A stretch of 64,000 nucleotides of DNA from an uncultured Lachnospiraceae bacterium (GTDB lineage Bacteria; Bacillota; Clostridia; Lachnospirales; Lachnospiraceae), in NCBI GenBank assembly GCA_902783775.1, contig CACZSI010000097.1:20261-84260 (forward strand), given 5' to 3'. Positions 38,045 to 44,998 of this stretch are shown piece by piece. Made by a program: the position numbers and the translations under genes. Positions within the stretch are counted from its first letter, which is position 1, and each line of letters begins with the position of its first letter. The notes under the pieces are model-generated. The model saw only the letters and a program-made list of their open reading frames with translations. It was not told the origin of the DNA and searched no databases.

Positions 38045-38614
38045 TTAATCATTTGATTTTAGAGTTACTTCTTCCTCTGCCTCATTCTTAAATTCGTCAA
38101 TCATTTCCTGATTGATAATTGGTAGGCTGTCGGCATTGTCAACGCCGAATCTTCTTAAAAATTCCTCAGTTGTACCAAACAAAATCGGTCTACCAGGTGT
38201 ATCTAATCTTCCCACCTCACAAACCAATTGATACTCTACTAATTTATTTACAGCAAAATCAGATTTAACACCTCTAATCTGCTCGATCTCAGTTTTAGTA
38301 ACCGGCTGCTTATATGCAATAATAGATAAAGTCTCCATCATAACATCTGTGATAACCTGTCTTTTAGGTTGCTTAGCAATCTTAATTAGCGCCTCATACA
38401 TTTCCGGCTTAGTGCACATCTGATATGAACCATCTAACTCGATTATCTTAATGCCTCTATTATCATTCTCTAATTCTTTCTGCATTGCCTTTACAGCTTT
38501 TCTAATATCCTTTGTAGGTACCTCAAGGGCTTTTGCTATCTTAGTTGCCTCCACAGATTCACCCATTGTAAATAATATTGCCTCTATGGATGCCTTTAAT
38601 GTATTCTCTTCCAT
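38045..38614 (-). CDS. scpB: segregation and condensation protein ScpB
   Basis: 189 aa. Two winged-helix domains (SIEAILFTMGESVEATKIAKAL near residues 9-30; MMETLSIIAYKQPVTKTEIEQIRGVKSDFAV near 91-121 as landmarks by their ending IRGVKSDFAV). It forms the condensin core with SMC and ScpA. It starts 2 bases after scpA. SMC is coded in the same window at 9.8-13.4 kb. Confidence 0.95.
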   Translation of the reverse strand: MEENTLKASIEAILFTMGESVEATKIAKALEVPTKDIRKAVKAMQKELENDNRGIKIIELDGSYQMCTKPEMYEALIKIAKQPKRQVITDVMMETLSIIAYKQPVTKTEIEQIRGVKSDFAVNKLVEYQLVCEVGRLDTPGRPILFGTTEEFLRRFGVDNADSLPIINQEMIDEFKNEAEEEVTLKSND

Positions 38615-38616
38615 AT

Positions 38617-39360
38617 TTATCCTTTCGCCTCAATAATAATATCGTCGAATGTATTTTTCTGAATTACAGTAATCTGTCCCATCTTTATAAGTTCTAACAC
38701 TGCTAGGAAAGAGACAATTACATTCATCTTACCTTCCTGCTTTTCTAGAAGTTTCTTAAAACTACACTTCTTCTGTTTCTTAATAGCATGGGTAACAAAT
38801 TCAATTTTATCAGGAAGGCTTACTTCCTCCATCTCGATTTTTCCAAACTTACTTCTCATTGGGTCAATCTTATCTTCCTGACGTCTTAGAACCATTTGGA
38901 AAATATCATTAAGTTTAGAGAAATCCACTCCGGATAACAATTCATCTAAATTAACCGGTGGCTCATATTTTAAGACTTCCTTAGGAATATCTGCAGCCCT
39001 ATATAATGACTTTCCTGCATAAACCTGCATATCTCTAAGCTCTATGGCGGCATACTTATATTTCTTATATTCTATAAGTCTCTCCACCAACTCTGCTCTA
39101 GGGTCAATATCCTCACCGTTTTCATCCTTCTCCTTAGGCAATAGCATACGACTTTTAATATCAATTAAAGTGGCTGCCATAACTAAAAATTCGCTGGCCA
39201 TATCCAAGTCTTCTTTTGGCATATTATTTACATACTCTAAGTATTGATCTGTAATCTCAACTATAGGAATGTCATAAATATCCACTTTATTTTTTTCTAT
39301 AAGATGCAATAGAAGATCTAGCGGACCTTCAAATGCCTCTAATTTAAACTCTAAATTCAT
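38617..39360 (-). CDS. scpA: segregation and condensation protein ScpA (kleisin)
   Basis: 247 aa. N-terminal FEGPLDLLLHLIEKNKVDIYDIPI near residues 9-32 is the kleisin signature, followed by ITDQYLEYVNNM and MAATLIDIKSRMLLP. The C-terminal winged helix (VSFLAVLELIKMGQITVIQ) binds the SMC head. It follows the LTA-synthase-like gene by 76 bases and is coupled to scpB. Confidence 0.95.
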   Translation of the reverse strand: MNLEFKLEAFEGPLDLLLHLIEKNKVDIYDIPIVEITDQYLEYVNNMPKEDLDMASEFLVMAATLIDIKSRMLLPKEKDENGEDIDPRAELVERLIEYKKYKYAAIELRDMQVYAGKSLYRAADIPKEVLKYEPPVNLDELLSGVDFSKLNDIFQMVLRRQEDKIDPMRSKFGKIEMEEVSLPDKIEFVTHAIKKQKKCSFKKLLEKQEGKMNVIVSFLAVLELIKMGQITVIQKNTFDDIIIEAKG

Positions 39361-41688: not shown

Positions 41689-41711
41689 ACTAAATATTGG
41701 AGGTGTATATT

Positions 41712-42740
41712 ATGAACAATACTTTTTTAAGAAAATTACCAACACCACAGGAAATCAAGATACAGTATCCTGTTCCTGAGTCTGTGGCTAAGCAAAAAGA
41801 AATTAACGACAAGGAAATCAGAGACATCTTTACAGGAAAAGATGATCGATTTGTCCTAGTTATAGGACCTTGTTCTGCTGACAATCAGGAAGCTGTGGAA
41901 GATTATATTTCCAGACTTAGAACAGTTCAGGATAAGGTTAAAGATAAAATCTATATTATCCCTAGAGTTTATACTAATAAACCTAGAACAACAGGTAAGG
42001 GTTATAAGGGAATGCTTCATCAGCCAGACCCAGAAAAGAAACCTGACTTACTTCAGGGATTAATCACAATCCGTCAGATGTTCTTAAAGATTATGGAGGA
42101 CACTAAATTCCCTCTAGCTGACGAGATGTTATATCCTGAAAATGCCAGATATTTTTCTGACTGTCTTTCATATGTAGCTATTGGAGCTCGTTCAGTGGAA
42201 GATCAGCAGCATAGACTAACAGCCAGCGGATTAGATATCCCTGTAGGAATGAAGAATCCTACTAGCGGCGACTTAACTATTATGCTTAACTCTATTGAAG
42301 CTGCTCAGTCAGAGCATTCATTCTTATACAGAGGTTGGGATGTAGAAACAACAGGTAATGATTTAGCACATGCTATTTTAAGAGGAGCTGTTAACCAGTA
42401 CGGACAGTGCATTCCAAACTATCACTATGAAGATATCTTAAATCTTTATAATTTATATAAAGAAAAAGGATTTGAAAATCCGGCAGTTATCATTGATACA
42501 AACCATTCTAATTCTAATAAACAGTATAAAGAACAGATTAGAATTGCTAAGGAAATTGTACATAACAGAAATTATAATCCTGAACTTAAGTCATTTATCA
42601 AAGGACTTATGATTGAAAGTTATATTGAAGAAGGAAATCAGAAAGTAACTGACCATTGCTATGGTAAATCTATTACAGATCCATGTTTAGGATGGGAAGA
42701 TACAGAAAAATTAATTCTTGATATTGCTCAGTTAGTATAA
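41712..42740 (+). CDS. aroF: 3-deoxy-7-phosphoheptulonate synthase (AroF/G/H class)
   Basis: 342 aa with the chosen start. First step of the shikimate pathway, joining PEP and erythrose 4-phosphate. Type I-alpha signature: LVIGPCSADNQEAVEDY near 47-63, RVYTNKPRTTGKGYKGM near 87-103, GARSVEDQQHRLTASGLDIPVGMKNPTSG region near 158-186 (landmark GARSVEDQQHR), and IDTNHSNSNKQYKEQ near 262. ATG 41712 follows TGGAGG at 41698-41703; the frame could start at a TTG at 41697, but that overlaps the Shine-Dalgarno. Own promoter and a shared terminator, so it is monocistronic. Confidence 0.95.
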   Translation: MNNTFLRKLPTPQEIKIQYPVPESVAKQKEINDKEIRDIFTGKDDRFVLVIGPCSADNQEAVEDYISRLRTVQDKVKDKIYIIPRVYTNKPRTTGKGYKGMLHQPDPEKKPDLLQGLITIRQMFLKIMEDTKFPLADEMLYPENARYFSDCLSYVAIGARSVEDQQHRLTASGLDIPVGMKNPTSGDLTIMLNSIEAAQSEHSFLYRGWDVETTGNDLAHAILRGAVNQYGQCIPNYHYEDILNLYNLYKEKGFENPAVIIDTNHSNSNKQYKEQIRIAKEIVHNRNYNPELKSFIKGLMIESYIEEGNQKVTDHCYGKSITDPCLGWEDTEKLILDIAQLV

Positions 42741-42744
42741 TATT

Positions 42745-42777
42745 AAAAGCTTGATAGAAATTCTCTATCAAGCTTTT
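42745..42777. terminator. bidirectional terminator between aroF and the XerD homologue
   Basis: A perfect 14-bp stem (42745-42758 with 42764-42777) with a 5-base loop has a T-run on each side and serves both converging genes. Confidence 0.9.
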
Positions 42778-43635
42778 TTAATTCTTTAATCTTTTATTGT
42801 TATTAGTTAAAAACCTCTGGGTAGATAAATCAGATGTAAATCCCATTAGTTCTTTTACCTCATCAATATCCACACCGCAGACAATCATATGTGAAGCAAA
42901 TGAGTTTCTAATCATATTAGGGGTAATATCTTTCTCTATTCCCACTTTTTTTCCGTAACTCTTTATAAGCTTCCAAAATCCCTGTCTACTCATTTTATTT
43001 CCATAAACATTAGGGAATAACACCCCTGAATCAGTTTTAGATATTCCTTCTCTTCCGTTCTTAAGATATTCGTCTAGTGCCACCTTAGCCACTTTTTGAA
43101 ATTCTACTTTTCTAACACCCTTACTTGTAGAACAAATTAGATAAGAATTAGATTCATTTAGATGTATATCATCCACCTTTAGTTCAATTAACTCAGACAC
43201 CTTAAGTCCTGTAGCATACATTAATTCTAGCATAGCCTTATCTCTTAATTCCTTAGGAGACTTACCGCTAGGCTGACTTAACAAAAGGTCTACCTCTTCT
43301 TCCGTCAAAATTTCCGGCTTAGTTTTTTCAAGTTTAGGCTTTCTTATAGAAAGAGATGGATTTTTTTCTATCATCCCCTCCTCTAGAGCATAAACAAAAA
43401 ATTCTTTAATCGAGGCAATGTTTCTACAAACAGTAGAAGGCTTCTTATTATCATTTAGATATTCAATATACTTATTTAACTTATCCTTAGATATCTTAGG
43501 AATATCATTAGTTGATTTAACCTTCATATAGCTAAGCATATTTTTAACATCTATTGAATAAGAAACCTCAGTGTTTTTCGAAAGATTCTTTTTATTATGT
43601 AATTTTATAACAAACTCATTTATTATTTCATTCAT
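42778..43635 (-). CDS. XerD-like tyrosine recombinase homologue lacking the catalytic residues
   Basis: 285 aa, full length, no internal stop. The N-terminal SAM-like core-binding domain (SYSIDVKNMLSYM, NIASIKEFFVYALEEG) and the C-terminal catalytic fold align with XerD throughout (RDKAMLELMYATGLKVSEL, MSRQGFWKLIKSYGKKVGI). However, the catalytic residues differ: Arg is Lys145, the first His is Asn240, the next His is Asn244, the third-box His is Phe266 and the nucleophilic Tyr is Phe275. Only Arg243 of the active site is kept. The lysine of the beta-hairpin is also unclear. DNA cleavage by the usual chemistry is not expected. It follows nudF (23 bases) in a proC-nudF-xerD unit, the place where xerD is found in many Firmicutes. 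Confidence 0.88.
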   Translation of the reverse strand: MNEIINEFVIKLHNKKNLSKNTEVSYSIDVKNMLSYMKVKSTNDIPKISKDKLNKYIEYLNDNKKPSTVCRNIASIKEFFVYALEEGMIEKNPSLSIRKPKLEKTKPEILTEEEVDLLLSQPSGKSPKELRDKAMLELMYATGLKVSELIELKVDDIHLNESNSYLICSTSKGVRKVEFQKVAKVALDEYLKNGREGISKTDSGVLFPNVYGNKMSRQGFWKLIKSYGKKVGIEKDITPNMIRNSFASHMIVCGVDIDEVKELMGFTSDLSTQRFLTNNNKRLKN

Positions 43636-43658
43636 AATATCTCCTTCTTAAACCACCT

Positions 43659-44198
43659 CTACTGATTCTTGTATTTTAATACATATGTTGTGATAGCAGC
43701 CACTGTTTTAGCATCTGTTATCTCATTATTCATAATTTTATCAATTAACTCCTGTGGCTCATATGCCTCTAACTCAATATCTTCATCCTGATCGAAATTC
43801 TGTCTTCCCGGCATTAGATTAAAAGCCACATAAATATCTATAATCTCACCTGAGTATGCAATGGCAGGTACTAAAGTCTGTAAAAAAACTATATCTTTAG
43901 CCTTATATCCTGTTTCTTCCTCCAGTTCTCTAGTGGCAGTCTTTAATGTAGGCTCATCCTCGGTATCCTTTGCTCCCGCAGGAATCTCCAATGCGAAATC
44001 TTCAATAGTGTTTCTCCACTGTCTCACCATTAATATTTTTCCGTCATCCATTACAGGTACAATAGCAGCAGCTCCTTTGTGATGGAGATAATCCCACTTA
44101 ACATTATTGCCCTTAGATGTCACTATCTCATCTTCACAAAAATCTAATATTTTTCCTTCATACACAACTTTTCTGTTTATTCTGTTAAACTTCTTCAT
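43659..44198 (-). CDS. nudF: NUDIX hydrolase, ADP-ribose pyrophosphatase type
   Basis: 179 aa. Splits ADP-ribose to AMP and ribose 5-phosphate. The NUDIX box runs from Gly75 (EIPAGAKDTEDEP) to RELEEETGY at 90-98; the Glu cluster that binds metal is intact, but there is one extra residue between the first Gly and the first acidic position. The N-terminal beta strands (GKILDFCEDEIVTSKG) are typical of ADP-ribose pyrophosphatases. It lies 8 bases after proC and 23 before the XerD homologue. Confidence 0.9.
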   Translation of the reverse strand: MKKFNRINRKVVYEGKILDFCEDEIVTSKGNNVKWDYLHHKGAAAIVPVMDDGKILMVRQWRNTIEDFALEIPAGAKDTEDEPTLKTATRELEEETGYKAKDIVFLQTLVPAIAYSGEIIDIYVAFNLMPGRQNFDQDEDIELEAYEPQELIDKIMNNEITDAKTVAAITTYVLKYKNQ

Positions 44199-44206
44199 AA
44201 TTTCTC

Positions 44207-44998
44207 CTATTTTAAAGACTCACTCTTCTCGTAACAAGCCTGAGTAGCTTTAAATAATGATTTTCTTAATCCATTGCTCTCTAACTGTTCCACAGCAGCT
44301 ATTGTTGTTCCACCAGGTGAACAAACCATATCCTTTAATTCTCCCGGATGCTTCTTTGTCTCTAACATTAACTTAGCTGAACCTAAAACAGTCTGAGCAA
44401 CTAATGTGTATGCGTCATCTCTCTTAATTCCATATTTAACTACGCTATCAGCCAATGCCTCAATAAACATAAATACATATGCAGGTGAGCTACCGTTAGC
44501 ACACACTGCTGCGTTCATAAGATTCTCTGGCAATTTAACGCTTTTTCCAATAGATGAATAAATAATATCTATCATCTCAATCTCACTCTGGTCAAATAAT
44601 GACTCATCGTAAGATACAGCAGTCATGCCCTCACCTACCATAGCAGGTGTGTTAGGCATTGATCTTACTACTCTTCCGCCAATCTTTTCTTTAATAGTAT
44701 CAATTGTAACACCCGGTAATATAGATAATACAACCAAATCATCTGTGACATAGTCTCTAATCTGCTCTGCTACATCATCTAACATCTGTGGCTTAATAGC
44801 TAATACAATAAAATCAGAGCCTTCCACTAGTTCCTTATAATCAAATGTATATGATACATTTAATTCTTCACTAACGCTTTTAGCTCTGTCTTCAAAAATT
44901 TCGATAAAAGATACATTATCAGAATTAACCTTCTTTAGGACACCACTTAACATAGCATATCCCATATTACCCATTCCAATAAATCCTACTTTTTTCAT
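44207..44998 (-). CDS. proC: pyrroline-5-carboxylate reductase
   Basis: 263 aa. Last step of proline synthesis. The NAD(P) motif VGFIGMGNMGYAMLSGVL at residues 3-20, AIKPQMLDDVAEQI near 66-79, RVVRSMPNTPAMVGEGMTA near 109-127 and the C-terminal signature DMVCSPGGTTIAAVEQLE near 226-243 are all present. First gene of proC-nudF-xerD. The Shine-Dalgarno is AGGAGG. A possible promoter lies at 45040-45068. Confidence 0.96.
   Translation of the reverse strand: MKKVGFIGMGNMGYAMLSGVLKKVNSDNVSFIEIFEDRAKSVSEELNVSYTFDYKELVEGSDFIVLAIKPQMLDDVAEQIRDYVTDDLVVLSILPGVTIDTIKEKIGGRVVRSMPNTPAMVGEGMTAVSYDESLFDQSEIEMIDIIYSSIGKSVKLPENLMNAAVCANGSSPAYVFMFIEALADSVVKYGIKRDDAYTLVAQTVLGSAKLMLETKKHPGELKDMVCSPGGTTIAAVEQLESNGLRKSLFKATQACYEKSESLK

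Follow-up and report, generated by a model that had tools for sequence, protein, structure and literature searches.

Is a xerD gene whose product has lost the residues for cutting DNA decaying, still coding for an enzyme, or kept for another function? XerD generally passes for a housekeeping enzyme of universal occurrence, and genes of this kind are annotated as 'site-specific recombinase'. In the 64,000-nucleotide stretch of Lachnospiraceae DNA analysed here (the window), one gene has the frame and the place of xerD, and an earlier note, made from the sequence, had described its catalytic residues as replaced and proposed that it had been repurposed as a DNA-binding or architectural protein.

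The xerD locus and its replaced active site

The reading frame is intact and encodes 285 amino acid residues with no interruption (Table 1). Its product contains the SAM-like and Phage_integrase domains of Pfam, the nearest sequence with a solved structure is E. coli XerD (1a0p, E 5e-40), and the top NCBIfam match is XerD (TIGR02225) with 253 bits, which lies below the strict cut-off of 329.6, as do two XerDs of the genus g39. These matches bear out the description of an intact tyrosine recombinase frame of this length, and two features of the XerD family, full-length two-domain homology and the xerD locus, are both present. Wherever flanks are available, the genus has the same order of proC, nudF, xerD and, convergent to them, the gene for DAHP synthase, so that the neighbourhood near nudF, which the earlier note had taken for the usual one of xerD, is indeed common to the genus. 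A gap of about 0.5–0.7 kb separates nudF from xerD in 12 of the 20 genus loci with nudF, and there is no such gap in the window. The window gene is thus a genuine xerD locus and a xerD orthologue. The chromosome condensation genes scpB and scpA are found at 38045–39360 of the window, about 3.4 kb from the altered xerD.

Table 1. Position and basis of the features at the xerD locus of the window
Feature	Position	Strand	Basis
xerD orthologue, 285 aa, active site replaced	42778..43635	-	ORF, profile and structure-sequence searches, alignment, synteny
Shine-Dalgarno AAGGAG ahead of ATG	43641..43646	-	read from sequence
Terminator-like hairpin, directly 3' of stop	42745..42777	-	fold, -17.9 kcal/mol
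Nudix hydrolase, nudF position, upstream gene in same run	43659..44198	-	nearest NCBIfam NudE, below cut-off
proC	44207..44998	-	synteny and profile scan
3-deoxy-7-phosphoheptulonate synthase (here aroF), convergent neighbour	41697..42740	+	synteny and profile scan
Kept stretch MSRQGFWKLIKSYGKK, residues 215-230	42946..42993	-	aligns with groove-helix region of E. coli XerD
Codon K145 (AAG), replaces catalytic Arg148	43201..43203	-	alignment
Codon N240 (AAT), replaces His244	42916..42918	-	alignment
Codon R243 (AGA), catalytic Arg247, kept	42907..42909	-	alignment
Codon F266 (TTT), replaces His270	42838..42840	-	alignment
Codon F275 (TTT), replaces nucleophile Tyr279	42811..42813	-	alignment

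In an alignment with 1a0p and 29 XerD relatives (which also took in a XerS-like protein, L002, removed from later XerD alignments), the catalytic R/H/R/H/Y reads K/N/R/F/F in the window protein, so that all four replacements and the one kept arginine of the earlier note were confirmed, and the R, H, R, H/W, Y set of the XerD family is not preserved. The hairpin lysine had been called uncertain. Among the XerDs of this group, conservation at the position of E. coli K172 is low, while the other five residues are usually conserved; therefore this lysine is uninformative and is not a loss peculiar to the window protein. Moreover, the protein ends about 10 residues early, lacking the YAKAHPKA-type tail of its same-genus orthologues: 10 residues follow position 275, compared with 19 in 185 of 235 intact XerDs, with tails of 12 residues or fewer also occurring in 10 of the 235 intact rows. 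The terminator-like hairpin occupies the place of the relatives' tail, and the C-terminal helix and tail that the XerD family uses between subunits is absent.

The changes of R to K, H to N and Y to F abolish the chemistry and roughly retain the shape. The available text of PMC10516654 states that Y-to-F inactivates Cre, XerH and lambda Int. That the product works as an enzyme by means of some atypical active site is scarcely credible: Arg247 is kept, there are lysines in the hairpin region and relatives in g39 retain Tyr279, but the nucleophile is Phe, there is no Tyr among the 10 residues past F275, and R148 and both His are gone. Judged from these residues, it is close to certain that the window protein would be unable to cut DNA. 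As for the tail, archaeal XerA shortened by its last 13 residues no longer recombines but still cleaves suicide substrates (PMC3646895); therefore the loss of site and tail together would mean a loss of recombination. DNA binding is most likely the function left after this joint loss.

The fold predicted by AlphaFold2 from 60 rows has a mean pLDDT of 90, with 78 in the linker and 67–45 in the last 24 residues, a poorly predicted part that includes F266 and F275. The top fold matches of the model are XerD, XerA and XerH, and MrpR/YopR and phi3T SroF come lower. In XerH a helix of the catalytic domain enters the major groove, and K290 there is the counterpart of H225 of E. coli XerD (PMC5241119, from the portion available). 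By the 1a0p alignment, the counterpart of H225 in the window protein is K222, which lies within MSRQGFWKLIKSYGKK.

Descent, decay and constraint

An orthologue was found in 21 of 22 other genomes of the genus, with 46–50% identity to the window protein, and the single genome without one is 65% complete. The R/H/R/H/Y set is intact in all 21. In an IQ-TREE phylogeny of 44 rows with the catalytic columns masked, the window protein stands beside these 21 orthologues, with a support of 74 at the next wider node (with L185) around the genus and the window protein, and constraining the tree so that it groups with four other XerDs of altered site lowers the raw log-likelihood by 22 units. FastTree on 270 rows groups it with these four (support 0.90), which is read as long-branch attraction given the IQ-TREE result and the forced-tree likelihoods. 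The FastTree grouping, and the fact that the source genome is a draft (1.92 Mb, 143 contigs, 89% complete), could also be taken as signs of an assembly, binning or alignment artefact, or of replacement in place by a foreign degenerate xerD. Either is very improbable, in view of the long contig, the genus-typical neighbours, the position in the IQ-TREE phylogeny and the spread of the replacements over the whole gene.

The window copy has changed quickly. Over 17 shared genomes, the terminal branch of the window genome is 1.26 for xerD, compared with 0.28 for nudF, 0.20 for aroF and 0.23 for the gene of the XerS-like recombinase. After scaling by the mean distance of each gene among the other genomes, a tip of 0.29–0.55 would be expected for xerD, and the acceleration is 2.3- to 4.3-fold. 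The first-position GC of the gene is the second lowest among 11 window genes compared. Since the close relatives are intact and the window copy is accelerated, relaxed selection contributed to its change, and its long branch also fits relaxed constraint. The earlier note had named intact orthologues in close relatives together with elevated dN/dS as the mark of decay, and the data go half of the way, in that the orthologues are intact (21/21) and the copy is accelerated.

The main rival, because the window gene is accelerated and no other member of its genus shares its state, is a slow pseudogenisation, in which xerD became redundant with the XerS-like recombinase, the active site and the tail were lost, and the frame is still open because the decay is recent. 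We regard it as possible but unlikely. The intact orthologues, the long tip and the low first-position GC are all in its favour. On the other hand, the excess in the window gene amounts to about 0.7–1.0 replacements per site with no stop. In a neutral simulation with three starting genes and 150 runs each, the share of genes still free of stops was 5–11% with 0.1 replacement per site and no more than 1% with 0.2; with 0.3 or more it was none of the 150 for each starting gene, and the nonsense changes averaged 7.6–8.5 at 0.3. A brief neutral phase in the recent past, of 0.1 replacement per site, is therefore compatible with an open frame in a small share of cases, while a long neutral decay is unlikely because it would have produced several stops and none is in frame. 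The argument of the earlier note that the absence of stops speaks against simple decay is upheld in this respect.

Other traits also argue against pseudogenisation. The length differences to the orthologues are in frame, and the Shine-Dalgarno and the terminator are intact. An alignment of 108 other XerDs has 85 columns with a conservation of 95% or more, and of these the window protein keeps 66, namely 65 of the 80 non-catalytic ones versus 1 of the 5 catalytic ones (Fisher p 0.008); if the comparison is confined to residues 236–285, the catalytic positions do not differ significantly from the surrounding ones (p 0.16). In the region 200–235, which contains the groove-helix stretch, 14 of 15 conserved columns are kept.

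Altered XerDs and the other recombinases

A XerD match at E 1e-35 was present in just 171 of 392 sampled genomes of the order, which is in line with pseudogenisation in so far as XerD is often missing. Of these 171 genomes, 170 were examined; G231 (a partial hit) and a second copy in G342 were left out, two rows were dropped from the tree and the counts, L229 for its runs of N and L230 for deletions within its catalytic part, and the broken or partial rows L226, L227 and L291 were kept, their catalytic positions reading intact. Among the 168 usable XerDs of the order, 31 differ from R/H/R/H/Y in at least one residue. In a larger set of 270 rows, composed of the order sample, 80 named loci and other relatives, which may share species, 35 are altered, with at least two positions affected in 23 of these, and Tyr279 is absent only in the window protein. 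Parsimony on the FastTree phylogeny, whose long branches are uncertain, needs 7 state changes for 'two or more altered'. The canonical HPR/HPK tail is present in 214 of 235 intact rows versus 13 of 35 altered ones (Fisher 4e-12), and in 13 of 19 altered rows when g39 is removed (p 0.008), both values being uncorrected for relatedness. In the 11 of the 35 altered rows that were inspected for it, the motif SRQGxWKxxKxY is kept throughout, save one S/T and one K/R change in L032. The XerDs L032 (in G054) and L307 (in G386), from other genera, show R148K and H244N as in the window copy, with H270 and Tyr kept.

In the genus g39, all of the 16 XerDs examined are altered (e.g. L318, L315, L345 and L220), with R148K in 12, H244F/Y in 14 and H270F/Y in 12. 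The Tyr is kept in all, and these proteins may retain some residual chemistry. In the three closest g39 pairs with both members altered, dN/dS (Nei-Gojobori) is 0.016, 0.066 and 0.082. The median of 159 intact reference pairs is 0.065 (range 0.017–0.175), these pairs being preselected for 80–99.5% protein identity and dS of 0.2–1.5, a choice biased towards low ratios. In g39 pairs that lie further apart and are saturated (dS 1.5 or more), the values are 0.07–0.30. These results show that the altered XerDs of g39 are under purifying selection like intact XerDs. The proof of such selection after alteration of the site concerns the g39 lineage and not the window gene itself; still, altered XerDs with ratios like those of intact ones argue against decay. 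It is chiefly by analogy with them that we prefer to read the window gene as coding for a DNA-binding protein that has been kept.

Four proteins of the source genome match the tyrosine recombinase family: the window XerD, a XerS-like protein of 351 residues, a third, altered protein and an integrase fragment at a contig end. The XerS-like protein (L002, on contig C49) scores 214 bits on the XerS model, whose cut-off is 267, and 31 of 31 rows aligned, which come from 29 genomes, have its R, K, H, R, H, Y. Its gene was found in 54 of the 60 genomes searched, the source genome included. Of the 59 relatives, 34 have XerD (counting that of G059, which is split in two), another 24 lack it but have the XerS-like gene, and one has neither; XerD without a detected XerS-like gene occurs in five, with a completeness of 59–91%. 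The FtsK gamma domain is present in all 23 genomes of the genus. We infer that the XerS-like enzyme resolves chromosome dimers. Hence, of the earlier proposals that another recombinase performs this task and that an intact Xer and a dif site be sought in the genome, an intact recombinase has been found, its role in dimer resolution is the inferred part, and dif was not recognised in the 23 genus genomes. The frequent presence of the XerS-like gene without XerD fits redundancy and thereby pseudogenisation. The XerS-like gene adjoins a gene reading as lexA, with LexA-box-like words between them that are common to most species of the genus, and from these words a link of dimer resolution to the SOS response is possible.

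The search for dif used the B. subtilis site with up to 3 mismatches and gave one match in the 23 genus genomes, which was dismissed as it lies inside a coding frame of another species (G009). No dif-like module was recognised beside the XerS-like gene among the words shared by the species of the genus: downstream words of 9 and 11 bases, shared by most of them, are read as LexA-box-like and not as dif, and the upstream shared words fall mostly within the neighbouring reading frame. As for XerC, a search of the 89%-complete source genome with TIGR02224 at E 1e-20 matched only the window protein and the XerS-like one, and the cut-off of this model, a strict one passed in just 2 of 14 control genomes, was passed in none of the 23 genus genomes. 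Four genus genomes other than the source carry an extra recombinase with 226–240 bits on the XerC model (G022:C32, G005:C16, G014:C3 and G002:C73).

The suggestion that the window protein still pairs with XerC is not supported, as none of the four family matches in the 89%-complete genome looks like XerC and the inter-subunit tail is missing. It is improbable that the protein, itself non-catalytic, assists or modulates the XerS-like recombinase at the dif site of the latter, or that it is an accessory in contact with FtsK. The genome does encode a XerS-like protein and the FtsK gamma domain, and a clamp fold is predicted, but the tail, which would pack into adjacent subunits, is absent, the accessible XerA data link truncation there to a block of recombination (PMC3646895), and XerS-like proteins do without XerD in the 24 relatives counted above.

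A second dead recombinase fold is present in the source genome outside the window (L154, G000:C70:14115-14840), with R to Q, H to Q and Y to F. These replacements are conserved in all 21 genus members in which it was found (the source genome and 20 of 22 others); outside the genus, G034 has Q, Q, Y and eight more distant aligned matches have R, H, Y. Its median dN/dS is 0.039 over pairs with dS of 0.1–1.5, a set that may include G034, and it adjoins a gene that reads as a D-Ala-D-Ala carboxypeptidase.

Taken together, we think it rather probable that the window gene is a vertically inherited xerD whose product neither cuts nor exchanges DNA and has been kept as a DNA-binding protein. The XerS-like enzyme would have taken over chromosome dimer resolution and so freed xerD. 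The product would still close as a clamp on a XerD-type half-site, would be unable to cleave or to build the cyclic tetramer, and might act by occupying or bending DNA, in a repressor or architectural role as MrpR does. The idea of repurposing in the earlier note is strengthened by the altered XerDs under purifying selection in g39, and is to be qualified by the contribution of relaxed selection in the window copy.

A takeover by XerS behind every loss of XerD was also considered and dropped. It cannot account for all cases because at most 8 of the 16 g39 genomes have a fair XerS-like match (seven over 400 bits and one at 291 bits); among the other eight, three have none at E 1e-40 and five have only 141–232 bits. 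A scan of two g39 genomes without a fair match using the XerD model found the altered XerD and weaker matches. The wider proposition, that xerD in the Lachnospirales, once released from dimer resolution, repeatedly became a non-cutting DNA-binding protein of which the window copy is an end point, has in our view an even chance of being right. If true, several independent changes have made what is probably a regulator or an architectural protein out of a core housekeeping recombinase, and in a large bacterial order the name 'site-specific recombinase' would be mistaken for a noticeable part of these genes. The altered XerDs also make one ask by which enzyme chromosome dimers are resolved in these bacteria, including the g39 members without a fair XerS-like match, and g39 offers natural material for asking what a Xer protein does besides cutting DNA. 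The earlier observation is right and more general than its reader could see. No paper on the loss of the XerD active site in Lachnospiraceae was found in the open-access literature, the search leaving subscription papers uncovered.

Comparison with known systems

With E. coli XerD (1a0p), TIGR02225 and the orthologues of its genus, the window protein has in common the locus, the two-domain fold and the groove-helix sequence, and it differs from XerD in lacking R148, H244, H270, Y279 and the C-terminal tail and in scoring under the curated cut-off. In genomes that use XerS, streptococci have an extra XerD homologue, the 'XerD-like' protein, which is not known to take part in recombination at difSL. 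The window protein matches its model (NF002685/PRK02436) with 58 bits, not passing the cut-off of 178 bits, and this model is shorter (245 positions). The likely dimer-resolution enzyme of the source genome resembles XerS of the single-recombinase system, as the latter is described in the available parts of PMC5357621 and PMC2731167; here the XerS-like protein is encoded by a separate gene, scores below the XerS cut-off, and has no adjacent dif that was recognised.

A parallel in function may be MrpR/YopR, the master repressor of SPbeta, which according to the text of PMC10516654 available has a recombinase fold, has lost recombinase function and is a DNA-binding repressor, keeping three of the seven catalytic residues. 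A kept fold, here a predicted one, and lost catalytic residues, which mark this class, are both found in the window protein, and the two proteins have an Asn in place of the same catalytic His; the DNA binding is that of MrpR. In contrast, MrpR is borne by a phage, has under 25% identity to recombinases and keeps its Tyr, as far as that text goes, whereas the window gene stands at the chromosomal xerD locus. Near MrpR/YopR in the list of fold matches stands phi3T SroF, whose title is also that of a repressor. In the same text, the authors of the MrpR study suspect that such recruitment is more widespread (PMC10516654).
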